Assembly: GCA_030622125.1 (NCBI GenBank)
Contig: JAUXGM010000145.1
Location: 1-5,303 of the forward strand
Reading direction: 5' to 3'
From: a bacterium
GTDB lineage: Bacteria; AUK180
Length of the DNA: 5,303 bases
Every line of letters begins with the position of its first letter. The first letter of the stretch is position 1. Positions 1 to 5,202 of the stretch are shown here, piece by piece. The notes under the pieces are model-generated. The model did not search any database and was not told the DNA's origin. It worked only from the letters and a program-made list of their open reading frames with translations. A program made the translations under genes and the position numbers.

Positions 1-1004
1 AGTTCCGCTAAGAAATAGAGGTTATAAACTTCATCACCAAACTCCCACATTGCCGGATCATCGGGATTGATGGTAACCAAAACACCCGCATCAACCAATT
101 GGTCAAGATGAAGATCCTCTATATTTTCAATAAAGAAATTATAATTTGAAATAGGATTTGATTCCAGTCTCACATTATTTTCAATAAAGAGTTCTATGAG
201 ATCATGATTTTTATAATACCTTTTGTATAGGGGAATTGCATGCCCGATGCCATTTGCTCTTAACAATGTTAAAGCGGTGTAAATATTTTTTAGATTTTCC
301 TTTTCACCACACATTTCCCCTGCGTGAACGGTTCTTCTAAAAGATGTATCAAAGGTTAATTTAAATGCCTCATAATGTTTTTCGGGAGGATTTTCCATTT
401 CTTCACCGGCAAGGTCAATACCACGGATTTTTTCGTTATCTTTATATTTTAAGAATTCTTTTACCAACTTTACGGATTGTTCGGAATCTATTTCCCTGCC
501 AATAGTAAGAATAAGTTTGACTTTAATTCCTGTTTCTTCCATACCTTTTTCAAACCCTTCAAGAGAATAACCGATCACTTTATCAATGCTCAATCCCTTT
601 TTCGTATGATACTGGGGAGCAAATCGAACCTCAGCATATTCGATATTTTGCGATTTTAAATACCTGCAATGTTCCACCGCAAGTTCGCTCAAATCACTTT
701 TTTCTTGCATTAAATTTATGGCAAGATTAAAAACATCAACCATTTTATATTTTCTCAATGCTCTTTGAAAAGACATTATCTTTTTAACGGAATCAAGTTT
801 TTGATCCTCCTTTGTTGCATAATGAATAAATTTGTTCTGAATATCATATTCGGGGAGCAATAATTCAATCCCTTTCCTTTTTGATAATTTATAAATTGCT
901 TCCGGCGGTACGGCTCCATCCCAATGGATATGTAGAATATTTACTTTTTCCTTTTTTAATTTTTCTAATAATTTTGGATTTTTAATTTTTAGTTTTCTTT
1001 TCAT
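1..1004 (-). CDS. Adenosine deaminase family protein (metal-dependent amidohydrolase), 3' end cut by the window edge
   Basis: This frame stays open for 334 codons from an ATG at 1004-1002 to the left window edge. Family members are about 330-350 residues, so only the last few are probably missing. The adenosine/adenine deaminase signatures appear in order: HIHWDGA (metal ligands His25 and His27), YAEVRFAPQYH (123-133), DLAGEE (197-202), TVHAGE (metal ligand His227, catalytic Glu230), NGIGHAI (His255), ESNPISN (281-287) and TINPDDPAMW (Asp315 and Asp316). The family deaminates adenosine, adenine or related purines hydrolytically with a bound metal, normally in the cytoplasm. Trp replaces the usual Leu in HxHLDG, and NPDDP replaces the more usual N-T/S-DDP, so the exact substrate cannot be fixed. 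The start is supported by AAGG six bases upstream. It overlaps the end of the preceding gene by 23 bp, which suggests translational coupling. The family is secure; calling it a true adenosine deaminase is not. Confidence 0.88.
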   Translation of the reverse strand, partial: MKRKLKIKNPKLLEKLKKEKVNILHIHWDGAVPPEAIYKLSKRKGIELLLPEYDIQNKFIHYATKEDQKLDSVKKIMSFQRALRKYKMVDVFNLAINLMQEKSDLSELAVEHCRYLKSQNIEYAEVRFAPQYHTKKGLSIDKVIGYSLEGFEKGMEETGIKVKLILTIGREIDSEQSVKLVKEFLKYKDNEKIRGIDLAGEEMENPPEKHYEAFKLTFDTSFRRTVHAGEMCGEKENLKNIYTALTLLRANGIGHAIPLYKRYYKNHDLIELFIENNVRLESNPISNYNFFIENIEDLHLDQLVDAGVLVTINPDDPAMWEFGDEVYNLYFLAE

Positions 1005-3054
1005 TTTCAACCTTTTTATTTTCATCTATCCAGATTATTCTTGAAAAATAATATTGTAACTTCATTTTGTTACAATCAAATTTTAACAAGGTGAAATAAG
1101 TTTTACCATAGATCTTCTCATCAGAACCAGCAAAAATGGCTGGAATAAAAATTCTTTTTCTTATTTTATTATTTTCTAAATTTATTATATAAAGTTTCGT
1201 ATATAAAAAATTAAAATATCCCGTAATCAAAAATTCATCATCTTGATTTACAAAAATGGGTGGAAGAAGATTGGTTGACACTCCATTTAAAAACCAGAAT
1301 CTATGGTTATAATAAAGGAAAAAATCTTTTTTACCTCTTCCTATAATACAATCGTTATTATAATGAGAAACTTTATAATCAGATATTTTTTTTGGACTAC
1401 TATCTTTCCAAAGAATTTTGCCATATTTATCATAAAATGTTATTTGTGAACCATCAATAAAAAAATAGGTAGAATGATATTTTTCATCTTTATCCCTCCC
1501 GTAATAACTTCCGTTATAATTATATTCATTTAATTTTTCCATTTTGTTTGAATAAAATGCAATTCTAATAATCTCGGAATATTTTTTAGCTTTTGTCTTG
1601 AAAATGTTTAACCTAAAAATATCAGCCTTTCTGTTAAATGCCGGTTTTTCATTTTCTTTTAGTAGTAATGTATATGTATTTCCATTGGTATACGAAAAGA
1701 TTTTATTCTTCTTTACTTTATAAGTTGTAAAATTATAACTAATATCTCTCAATTTTTTCTTCTTTTTTTTCTCAATTTTTCCTTCTTCTATTAACTCAAT
1801 TGTTTCTATGTTAAATATATAAAATTTATTACCTGCAACTATTTTTAATTTGTTTTTATCAATAGCCCAGGCATGAGAATATTTTGATTTAGAATTTCTT
1901 GAAAGGATCTGTTTCAAACTTAGATCTTCGTTCACCTTGTAAACTTCAATCTTTCCATCTTTAGAATGGTTAATTAAAAATTCGTTATAAACGAAAAAAT
2001 TACATCCTGTTTCAATATTAATCGGAATGTTTTGAAAACTTATTTTAGGCTGAGGTTTTGATAAGAAGAGTGGAACTATTAAAATAAAAATGAAAAAAAT
2101 TGTAATAATTTTAAAGAATGATTTTTTGAAAAAAACAAAAAATAAGACCAATGCAAAAATAAAAAACATCAAAAACAACATTATTTTTGAAAGATTGGGT
2201 AGAAAAAAACTTGCTATAAATATTGATATAACAAATATGATTAAATAAATGAAGGCGTGCAATCTCTCCTTATTACTTATTTTAATCTCTTTTTTAATTT
2301 TTCTTCTCTTTAATATTCTTTTGGCAAAATAAAACATTCCAATAAATGCAACTATTCCGACAATGATCATTGGAATATTTAAATTCTCAGGCAATGGAAT
2401 TTTAAAAATATATACTAATGCACCAACAGTATTGTTGAAAATGTGCACAAAAATATTTAACCATATATTATCAGTAAAAATATAAATTAATCCGAGAAAA
2501 ATACCCACTGCAAAAATCTCCAAAAATAAATTTAGAGAATGTAAGGAAGAAAAAATCAAAGAAGATAAAATAAGGGCTGGAAGAGTTCCAATTTTTCTTT
2601 CAAAGGATTTTAAAAGTAAGCCACGAAATAATATTTCTTCGGTTATAGGTCCGAATATTCCTATATATAAAATTATTTCCCAATTTGACAATTTAACCAT
2701 TTTTAAAAAATCAAAAAGGTATTTTGACTGATTTTCTAATTTGAAAGCAGTTTGTATAAATCCGTCAAAAACATAAATAACTATGTAGCCAAAAATTATA
2801 AAGAGTAAATAATAAAAAAGATATTTATTTATATTTTTGAATTTTAAATAGTCAAATTTATTAAGTTTAAATAATTTAAAAAAATTCTTAAAGAAATAAA
2901 GCAACAAAAGAAATGTTAAAAAAAGAAAAATCAAGTTTAAAATAAGTGGCGACGTTTTTATTATAAGTGATTTATAGATATAACCATTAAAAAAAATCTC
3001 ATAAATTACTAAACCAGTGATAAAAGGAATAATATTCCACTTATTCTTGACCAT
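982..3054 (-). CDS. CPBP-family intramembrane metalloprotease with a large C-terminal extracytoplasmic beta-rich domain
   Basis: This complete 690-residue membrane protein has two parts. Residues about 1-250 are very hydrophobic and hold the three CPBP (CAAX protease/Abi) motifs: EEILFR (Glu139, Glu140, Arg144), FSSLH (Phe168, His172) and HIFNN (His204, Asn208). All the expected catalytic residues are present, so an active intramembrane protease is likely, although its substrate is unknown. A strongly basic loop (245-265), probably cytoplasmic, is followed by three more hydrophobic segments (about 266-286, 291-309, 314-331). By the positive-inside rule this places residues 332-690 outside the membrane. 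That region is rich in short beta-strand-like stretches, including a propeller-like FYDKYGKILWKD (540-551), so a beta-propeller or PQQ-like fold is possible but unproven. Typical CPBP proteins are about 200-300 residues, so the C-terminal extension is unusual. The start is supported by AGGAGG six bases upstream, and the gene begins 16 bp after the YbjQ-like gene. It is visibly more AT-rich than the gene at 3769. Confidence 0.85.
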   Translation of the reverse strand: MVKNKWNIIPFITGLVIYEIFFNGYIYKSLIIKTSPLILNLIFLFLTFLLLLYFFKNFFKLFKLNKFDYLKFKNINKYLFYYLLFIIFGYIVIYVFDGFIQTAFKLENQSKYLFDFLKMVKLSNWEIILYIGIFGPITEEILFRGLLLKSFERKIGTLPALILSSLIFSSLHSLNLFLEIFAVGIFLGLIYIFTDNIWLNIFVHIFNNTVGALVYIFKIPLPENLNIPMIIVGIVAFIGMFYFAKRILKRRKIKKEIKISNKERLHAFIYLIIFVISIFIASFFLPNLSKIMLFLMFFIFALVLFFVFFKKSFFKIITIFFIFILIVPLFLSKPQPKISFQNIPINIETGCNFFVYNEFLINHSKDGKIEVYKVNEDLSLKQILSRNSKSKYSHAWAIDKNKLKIVAGNKFYIFNIETIELIEEGKIEKKKKKKLRDISYNFTTYKVKKNKIFSYTNGNTYTLLLKENEKPAFNRKADIFRLNIFKTKAKKYSEIIRIAFYSNKMEKLNEYNYNGSYYGRDKDEKYHSTYFFIDGSQITFYDKYGKILWKDSSPKKISDYKVSHYNNDCIIGRGKKDFFLYYNHRFWFLNGVSTNLLPPIFVNQDDEFLITGYFNFLYTKLYIINLENNKIRKRIFIPAIFAGSDEKIYGKTYFTLLKFDCNKMKLQYYFSRIIWIDENKKVENEKKTKN

Positions 3055-3530: not shown

Positions 3531-3614
3531 GCCGGGATGGTGAAATTGGCAGACACGCATGGTTCAGGACCATGTGAGGGCGACCTCGTGCAGGTTCAAG
3601 TCCTGTTCCCGGCA
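3531..3614 (+). tRNA. tRNA-Leu (anticodon CAG)
   Basis: The 84-nt sequence folds as a class II tRNA. The acceptor stem is GCCGGGA (3531-3537) pairing with TCCCGGC (3607-3613), with discriminator A3614. The anticodon stem is CATGG (3558-3562) with CCATG (3570-3574), around the loop TTCAGGA, giving anticodon CAG (3565-3567), which reads CUG. A long variable arm, GAGG-GCGA-CCTC (3576-3587), is typical of Leu and Ser tRNAs. The T arm has GCAGG, TTCAAGT and CCTGT. The CCA end is not encoded and must be added after transcription. A downstream T-rich stretch may help end transcription. Confidence 0.96.
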
Positions 3615-3648: not shown

Positions 3649-3659
3649 AAAATAAATTT

Positions 3660-3738
3660 GCAGGGGTGCGTAAGCTGAGAAGACAATTTTTGTCTACCCT
3701 TTGAACCTGATGCGGGTAATACCGACGAAGGAAGCTTC
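3660..3738 (+). ncRNA. TPP riboswitch aptamer (THI box)
   Basis: The conserved thiamine-diphosphate aptamer core is present in order: AGGGGTGC (3662-3669), GCTGAGA (3674-3680), ACCCTTTGAACCTGAT (3696-3711), CGGGTAATACCG (3713-3724) and GAAGGAAGC (3727-3735). Expected helices can be drawn: P2 from GGGG (3663-3666) with CCCT (3697-3700), an optional P3a arm from AGACAA (3681-3686) with TTGTCT (3690-3695), P4 from CCT (3706-3708) with AGG (3729-3731), and P5 from CGG with CCG around GTAATA. P3 is minimal (TGC-GTAA-GC), and I could not draw a strong P1. The aptamer binds thiamine diphosphate and in bacteria usually represses thiamine synthesis or transport genes. It precedes only the PurM/HypE-like gene. 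Confidence 0.93.
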
Positions 3739-3744
3739 ACAACT

Positions 3745-3764
3745 CCTCCTGCTTGAATAGGAGG
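3745..3764 (+). promoter_or_regulatory. Expression platform: hairpin that sequesters the Shine-Dalgarno site
   Basis: CCTCCT (3745-3750) is perfectly complementary to the Shine-Dalgarno AGGAGG (3759-3764), with an 8-nt loop between them. The hairpin would hide the ribosome binding site, which lies only four bases before the ATG at 3769. No T-run follows, so control should act on translation rather than by transcription termination. The anti-Shine-Dalgarno strand can alternatively pair with the 5' edge of the aptamer (3660-3666). Confidence 0.75.
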
Positions 3765-3768
3765 CATT

Positions 3769-4821
3769 ATGTCAAATTCAGAATTACCACTTGGTAAGAT
3801 TTCACCGGAGATATTCAGGGAAGTTATTTATCCGGCACTTGGAGCAAGATCAAAAGATGTTATTATTGGTCCTCAAAGTGGCGTCGATATCGGTGTTACA
3901 AGGATAGGAAACAAGGTTATTGCAACAACTACCGATCCGGTCTTTATTGTTAAAGAATACGGATTTGAAAAAGCAGCATGGTTTGCAATTCATATTCTCG
4001 TTTCAGATGTTGTAACAAGCGGATTGAAGCCGGATTTTCTAACAATTGATCTCAATCTTCCTGTTGAGATACAAAAACAAGAGGTTGCCTTGCTTTGGAA
4101 TACGATCCACCGAGAATGCGAAAAAATGGGAATTGCCATTATAAGCGGACATACCGGAAGGTACGACGGTTGCAACTACCCGATGGTAGGTGGTGCTACT
4201 GTAATTGCTGTCGGAGATGAAAATGAATACATTGCACCGACAATGGCAGAACCAAAGGATAAGATCGTTGTAACAAAGGGGTGTGCCATTGAAGCAGCGG
4301 GACTTTTTGCCGCAACTTTTCCACAAAAAATCAAGCAATTATTCGGTGAAAAGATATACCAAAAAGCAGATAGACTTTTTTATAAGATGTCGGTTGTAAA
4401 AGAGGCTGAGATCGCCAGAAAGATTGGATTGAGGGATAAGGGTGTAACATCAATGCACGATGCAACAGAAGGCGGTGTAGTTGGCGGACTTTATGAGGTT
4501 GCAAAAGCATCCGATGTCGGAATGATCATAGAAAAGGAAAAGATCATTGTGAAACCCGAAGTAAAAGCAATTTGTGATTATTATAAGATGGATCCCTATA
4601 TTTCAATAAGTGAAGGGACAATGCTCATAACGGTAAAGCCTGAAAAAGAAAATGAACTTGTAAGGAAACTTAAAGAAAATAATATTGATGCCTCAACGGT
4701 TGGTGAAATAACGGAAAATAAGGATGTAATTATCAAGGATAAAAATGGAAGTCATACTCTTGAACATCCACGAATAGACCCCTTCTGGGCTGCATTTGGA
4801 AAGGAATGTACTGGGAATTGA
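3769..4821 (+). CDS. AIR synthase (PurM/HypE/ThiL superfamily) protein, HypE-like, under TPP riboswitch control
   Basis: This complete 350-residue soluble protein resembles the PurM-fold ATP-dependent enzymes, closest in feel to HypE-like AIR synthase family proteins. The N-terminal half has the Gly/Asp-rich GPQSGVDIGV (34-43), TTTDPVF (53-59), HILVSDVVTSGLKPDFL (75-91) and SGHTGRYDG (126-134). The C-terminal half has MHDATEGGVVGGLYEVA (229-245), the equivalent of the family's HDxTxGG loop, and SEGTMLITV (281-289). HypE makes the cyanide ligand of NiFe hydrogenase using a C-terminal PRIC cysteine. Here the end reads PRIDPFWAAFGKECTGN, so that function is unlikely, and no other hyp gene is in view. 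ThiL (thiamine-phosphate kinase) and PurM (which makes AIR, the substrate of ThiC) share the fold, and the TPP riboswitch points to thiamine metabolism. The exact reaction is unknown. The start is supported by AGGAGG four bases upstream. It appears to be transcribed alone. Confidence 0.87.
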   Translation: MSNSELPLGKISPEIFREVIYPALGARSKDVIIGPQSGVDIGVTRIGNKVIATTTDPVFIVKEYGFEKAAWFAIHILVSDVVTSGLKPDFLTIDLNLPVEIQKQEVALLWNTIHRECEKMGIAIISGHTGRYDGCNYPMVGGATVIAVGDENEYIAPTMAEPKDKIVVTKGCAIEAAGLFAATFPQKIKQLFGEKIYQKADRLFYKMSVVKEAEIARKIGLRDKGVTSMHDATEGGVVGGLYEVAKASDVGMIIEKEKIIVKPEVKAICDYYKMDPYISISEGTMLITVKPEKENELVRKLKENNIDASTVGEITENKDVIIKDKNGSHTLEHPRIDPFWAAFGKECTGN

Positions 4822-4871: not shown

Positions 4872-4897
4872 TAATGGCACGGCATGCCGTGCCATTA
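4872..4897. repeat. Perfect 26-nt palindrome (GC-rich core)
   Basis: The 13-base half TAATGGCACGGCA (4872-4884) is followed directly by its exact reverse complement (4885-4897), with no spacer. The core GGCACGGCATGCCGTGCC is far more GC-rich than its surroundings. As RNA it would fold into a strong hairpin and could end or stabilise the transcript of the upstream gene, but no clear U-tract follows on either strand. It resembles dispersed palindromic elements found in many genomes. Confidence 0.85.
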
Positions 4898-5027: not shown

Positions 5028-5048
5028 GAATCCGGGACACATCTCAAC
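5028..5048. repeat. 21-bp direct repeat, copy 1
   Basis: This 21-bp stretch, with core CCGGGACACATCTCAA, is identical to 5182-5202. The copies start 154 bp apart. This copy also forms the left arm of the hairpin at 5034-5079. Confidence 0.85.
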
Positions 5049-5181: not shown

Positions 5182-5202
5182 GAATCCGGGACACATCTCA
5201 AC
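5182..5202. repeat. 21-bp direct repeat, copy 2
   Basis: It is identical to 5028-5048. It is followed within 7 bp by the nested hairpin at 5209-5259, whose left arm begins GGGACGCACCTT, a sequence resembling the repeat's own GGGACACATCTC. Confidence 0.85.

Follow-up and report, generated by a model that had tools for sequence, protein, structure and literature searches.

A TPP riboswitch-controlled protein of the PurM superfamily as a candidate hydroxyethylthiazole kinase

The TMP synthase ThiE receives hydroxyethylthiazole phosphate (HET-P) either from ThiG, a de novo synthase that acts with ThiH and ThiS, or from ThiM, a hydroxyethylthiazole (HET) kinase with a ribokinase-like fold (PF02110). 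E. coli carries both ThiM and ThiG. ThiL (TIGR01379), which acts two steps after HET kinase and has a PurM-type fold, adds phosphate at the same end of the thiazole side chain. Among other members of this superfamily, PurM itself carries out the ATP-dependent closure of the imidazole ring, and HypE (TIGR02124) is a carbamoyl dehydratase. A gene set comprising ThiC, ThiD, ThiE, HET kinase and ThiL has been classified as the HET-auxotroph variant 'Az' (PMC6593275).

The protein described here, termed X, is encoded by the sole gene downstream of a TPP riboswitch aptamer in a 5,303-nt stretch of bacterial DNA, which at its full length is called the window. In its pathway position and proposed reaction X resembles ThiM, since both are associated with ThiE and ThiD, with TPP riboswitches and with genomes that have ThiC without ThiG, although X belongs to the PurM superfamily and is unrelated to ThiM in fold. 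It also differs from ThiG in fold and chemistry and lacks the accessory genes, even though close relatives have ThiG at the corresponding place in the operon. We consider it probable, from sequence comparison and gene context, that X is an ATP-dependent supplier of HET-P for ThiE or ThiN, most likely a non-orthologous HET kinase in the role of ThiM. X represents a family of TPP-controlled thiamine enzymes that has no name in the curated libraries used, and our search, which left most subscription journals outside its reach, found no paper in which TPP riboswitches or HET kinase are connected with an AIR synthase-like protein.

Table 1. Features of the window at and around the gene for X
Feature	Position	Strand	Remarks
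tRNA-Leu gene	3531-3614		Ends 37 nt before the aptamer
TPP riboswitch aptamer (RF00059)	3652-3750	+	cmscan 63.1 bits, E 4.1e-11, full model 1-105
Candidate expression platform: CCUCCU...AGGAGG hairpin covering the Shine-Dalgarno sequence	3735-3771	+	From folding; putative function
Protein X, 350 aa, PurM (AIR synthase) superfamily, proposed HET kinase	3769-4821	+	ATG start; Pfam AIRS + AIRS_C
Perfect inverted repeat, 13+13 nt without spacer, possible transcription terminator	4872-4897	+	Just 3' of X

The aptamer, which the initial annotation had recognised as a TPP riboswitch, scores above the RF00059 gathering threshold of 54.3 bits and possesses a short P1 helix. Its tail can fold into a hairpin (-9.4 kcal/mol) that pairs the Shine-Dalgarno sequence, with equally low energies in 10 of 500 shuffled sequences. 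The left arm of this hairpin has an alternative partner in the 5' strand of the aptamer (GCAGGGG), for which 66 of 500 shuffles are equally low. Support from shuffling for these pairings in the window itself is therefore modest. However, both the hairpin and the aptamer-strand pairing can form at four related loci (L001, L002, L003 and L008) despite their differing letters, which suggests that the leader of X is a translational off-switch. Presumably, abundant TPP would bind the riboswitch and release the anti-Shine-Dalgarno arm from the aptamer strand, and the freed arm would then close the ribosome site and turn off production of X. Downstream of X, a scan for terminator-like elements matched positions 4881-4893, but no better than expected from shuffled sequence.

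The remainder of the window carries two genes on the minus strand. One (985-3054) encodes a 690-residue protein whose N-terminal part holds a CPBP (Rce1-like) membrane protease domain and whose long C-terminal part matches no Pfam family. The other (3-1025) is cut by the window end and encodes an adenosine deaminase-like protein that scores 189 bits against a TIGR01430 cut-off of 216.55, and may be a different deaminase. In addition, two identical 21-nt direct repeats (GAATCCGGGACACATCTCAAC) lie 154 nt apart at 5028-5048 and 5182-5202, where no ORF is listed.

Membership of X in the PurM superfamily is established by its Pfam matches to AIRS (40.5 bits, cut-off 24) and AIRS_C (80.5 bits, cut-off 23.1), which are the only domains found, with no match to the ThiM family PF02110. 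As the initial annotation had noted, the protein resembles HypE: this is its best NCBIfam model (94.2 bits), HypE is the nearest solved structure (Z 35) to the predicted model of X (pLDDT 89.9), and the DxTxGGV and SEG/NEG segments are common to both. However, the HypE score falls far below the cut-off of 251.6 bits, and the scores against ThiL (84.1 bits, cut-off 184.15) and SelD (54 bits, cut-off 125) are likewise insufficient. Eight relatives of X, recovered from species genomes by a homologue search, behave in the same way, with 82-111 bits for the HypE model and 60-83 bits for the ThiL model, all below the cut-offs. SelD and ThiL follow HypE in the structural comparison (Z 28-29). In a superfamily tree, X forms its own clade that is split from ThiL with 96/96 support, while HypE, SelD and PurM are each represented by a single E. 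coli row, so that the placement of these long branches is unsure. The window protein groups with those of L001-L003 (100/99) and is 66-71% identical to the X proteins of genomes G001, G002, G003 and G008.

Alignment of the X and ThiL profiles (hhalign probability 99.6) indicates which parts of the ThiL active site persist. Most of the acidic positions of ThiL are retained in X (D40, D56, D80 and D231, plus E234 in place of D), whereas the ThiL motifs GDD, GGEDYEL and GGD/N are altered to GVD, SISEGT and GHT, respectively. This combination suggests that X likely retains ATP-Mg chemistry and has a changed substrate side. Two cysteines, C117 and C269, occur in every one of the 23 aligned X proteins, and a third, C135, is present in 21 of them.

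We identified X in 26 genomes, which are all draft or metagenome assemblies (those with a named origin are MAGs), and therefore gene absences are to be read as soft. The protein is encoded by four of the six genomes in the small phylum nearest the window, by 17 of 340 genomes in an Elusimicrobiota-type phylum (that of G006, an Elusimicrobia MAG), and by three of 377 genomes in the phylum that includes the Myxococcales MAG G007. Single additional MAGs are labelled Bacteroidetes and Actinomycetota. A TPP riboswitch precedes X or heads its operon at 22 of 23 testable loci, of which 17 reach the gathering score and five more lie at or slightly under it. Three loci that start within the operon (L042, L043 and L047) were left out of this count, and the single testable locus where no riboswitch was found is L005.

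The gene neighbourhoods share this thiamine theme. At all loci of the Elusimicrobiota-type phylum, thiE precedes X, and the order within contig reach is thiC-thiD-thiE-X or thiD-thiE-X. L005 has the order thiE-X, and L007 has X-thiE-thiD followed by an NMT1/THI5-like gene of the pyrimidine-precursor type. In genomes G432 and G359, the gene after a divergent X encodes ThiN, which belongs to another TMP synthase family. These stand-alone ThiN genes (L058 8952-9539 and L059 6571-7155) lie under TPP riboswitches, and the adjacent X proteins are about 40% identical and lack the GCNYP motif. Both genomes also carry a separate thiM-thiE pair, giving two parallel TMP-forming gene pairs. Thus, the expectation that upstream THI boxes and neighbouring thi genes would mark the homologues was borne out, as was the thiamine-related role proposed for X. 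The initial description of X as a lone gene holds for the lineage of the window and for the Bacteroidetes locus L004, where X stands alone behind its own riboswitch, but in the other phyla X resides inside thi operons. In one relative of the window (G003), thiC and a ThiD2-ThiE fusion are encoded away from X. Fusion proteins adjoin thiC in relatives of the window (L112 1063-2094, L115 1063-2109 and L116 1441-2487), that of L112 being ThiD2-ThiE by Pfam and the other two similar. None of the genes flanking X was recognised as encoding a thiazole transporter.

The step performed by X can be narrowed by determining which thiamine genes accompany it. In the Elusimicrobiota-type phylum, 142 of the 340 genomes carry ThiE, including 113 with ThiG and/or ThiM, 17 with X and neither of these, and 12 without all three. 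Accordingly, ThiG or ThiM is present in none of the 17 ThiE-containing genomes with X, versus 113 of the 125 without X (Fisher p 1.3e-14, uncorrected for kinship). Thi4, another potential source of the thiazole, was not found in any of the 26 X genomes, these 17 included. Across the whole set, ThiG occurs in three genomes (G002, G005 and G008) and ThiM in two (G359 and G432, both with divergent X), and hence the exclusion of X with ThiG or with ThiM is not absolute. The co-occurrence of X and ThiG resembles the situation in E. coli, where ThiM and ThiG are both present.

Operon comparisons reveal the same exchange locus by locus. Genomes G150, G151 and G154 have thiC-thiD-thiG-thiH-thiE operons whose ThiC proteins share 77-78% identity with the ThiC encoded in the X operon of G006, and thiM sits between thiC and thiE in G115 and G133. 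On a ThiC tree, no fewer than three changes are needed to explain the distribution of X, and G148, a genome with ThiG, groups as sister to G160, which has X (100/99), indicating that the exchange was not one old event. This replacement of thiG and thiM suggests that X most likely does the job of one of them, which is to supply HET-P to ThiE. For the X protein of the window, the assignment of the step rests on the genomes of relatives. Among the four genomes nearest to it, G003 has the X-only pattern, G002 and G008 add ThiG, and ThiE was not found in G001. A further X genome in which ThiE was not found is G004. A second ThiE is encoded next to thiH and thiG in G002 and G008.

Several features favour a HET kinase as the form that this job takes. 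X has a ThiL-type fold, and the thiazole side-chain end that a HET kinase would modify is the one on which ThiL acts. Like ThiM, X comes as one gene that has no sulfur-carrier or radical-SAM partner, and at L007 it adjoins thiE and thiD, much as thiM is placed in operons for salvage. Moreover, the gene set that would result corresponds to a recognised HET-auxotroph variant (PMC6593275). We infer that X would phosphorylate the hydroxyl of imported or recycled HET by means of its PurM/ThiL-type fold (HET + ATP -> HET-P + ADP), and that the HET-P would pass to the TMP synthase, whether ThiE or ThiN.

The initial annotation had proposed two other roles, of which the first was a non-orthologous TMP kinase that replaces ThiL. 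X and ThiL share fold and pathway, X closes thiC-thiD-thiE operons as their last gene, and ThiL was not found in three of the 26 X genomes (G155, G208 and G224). However, the other 23 already carry ThiL, 22 of them above the curated cut-off, and the GDD, SDG and GG(E/D)(D/E)Y motifs are recognisable in those inspected. Second ThiL-like proteins below the cut-off (94-102 bits) are encoded in two X genomes, at L075 (G159) and L076 (G140). Given this co-occurrence, replacement of ThiL was rejected, and a TMP kinase function is quite improbable for a protein that has lost the GGEDYEL motif, particularly as it would leave the absence of ThiG and ThiM precisely in X genomes unexplained. The other role, an enzyme acting near AIR and ThiC, is not favoured because thiC is present in most X operons and the missing genes are thiG and thiM. 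TPP control and a kinase-like fold would also suit an enzyme of thiamine salvage outside the thiazole branch, such as a thiamine kinase. We regard this as improbable, since the operons that contain X are biosynthetic (thiC, thiD and thiE) and ThiE would be left without a known source of HET-P in most X genomes. Only a chance association with the riboswitch could reconcile X with a HypE function, to which its best profile and fold matches point. This is scarcely conceivable with riboswitches at nearly all testable loci, and HypE was ruled out by score, by the lack of a conserved C-terminal cysteine in the aligned X proteins (E. coli HypE ends in PRIC), and by gene context, with no hyp gene recognised among the listed ORFs flanking X. 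Hydrogenase maturation had already been discounted in the initial annotation, and these results agree.

A different proposal accepts that X provides HET-P, but holds that it builds the thiazole ring de novo through a PurM-like, ATP-dependent closure, either alone or with general sulfur carriers. One-enzyme synthesis of this kind would produce an identical phyletic pattern. It would also fit the position of X in place of thiG-thiH within otherwise similar operons, the precedent of imidazole ring closure by PurM, the conserved cysteines, and the presence of X alongside ThiM in G359 and G432. However, thiG is paired with thiH, whereas the X operons showed no gene for a sulfur carrier, a radical-SAM enzyme or an oxidase. 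Furthermore, X accompanies ThiG in three genomes, is flanked at L007 by salvage-type genes as ThiM is, and replaces other functions as one gene, which suits a kinase better. Overall, we judge de novo synthesis to be unlikely. Slightly more doubtful still is its most specific form, a single-protein route unlike those of ThiG and Thi4, in which a PurM-type ring closure would be driven by ATP and the conserved cysteines would possibly handle sulfur.

Annotation by similarity would tend to label X as hypE or as AIR synthase-like, and would mark its hosts as having no source of thiazole. As a HET kinase, X would add another enzyme family, unrelated to the first, for a known step of vitamin B1 metabolism, and the substrates of the PurM/ThiL fold would then include a thiazole that is not phosphorylated. 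Genomes with an apparent hole in the pathway would then become complete HET salvagers. If X instead makes the ring, it would represent a third de novo route to the thiazole.
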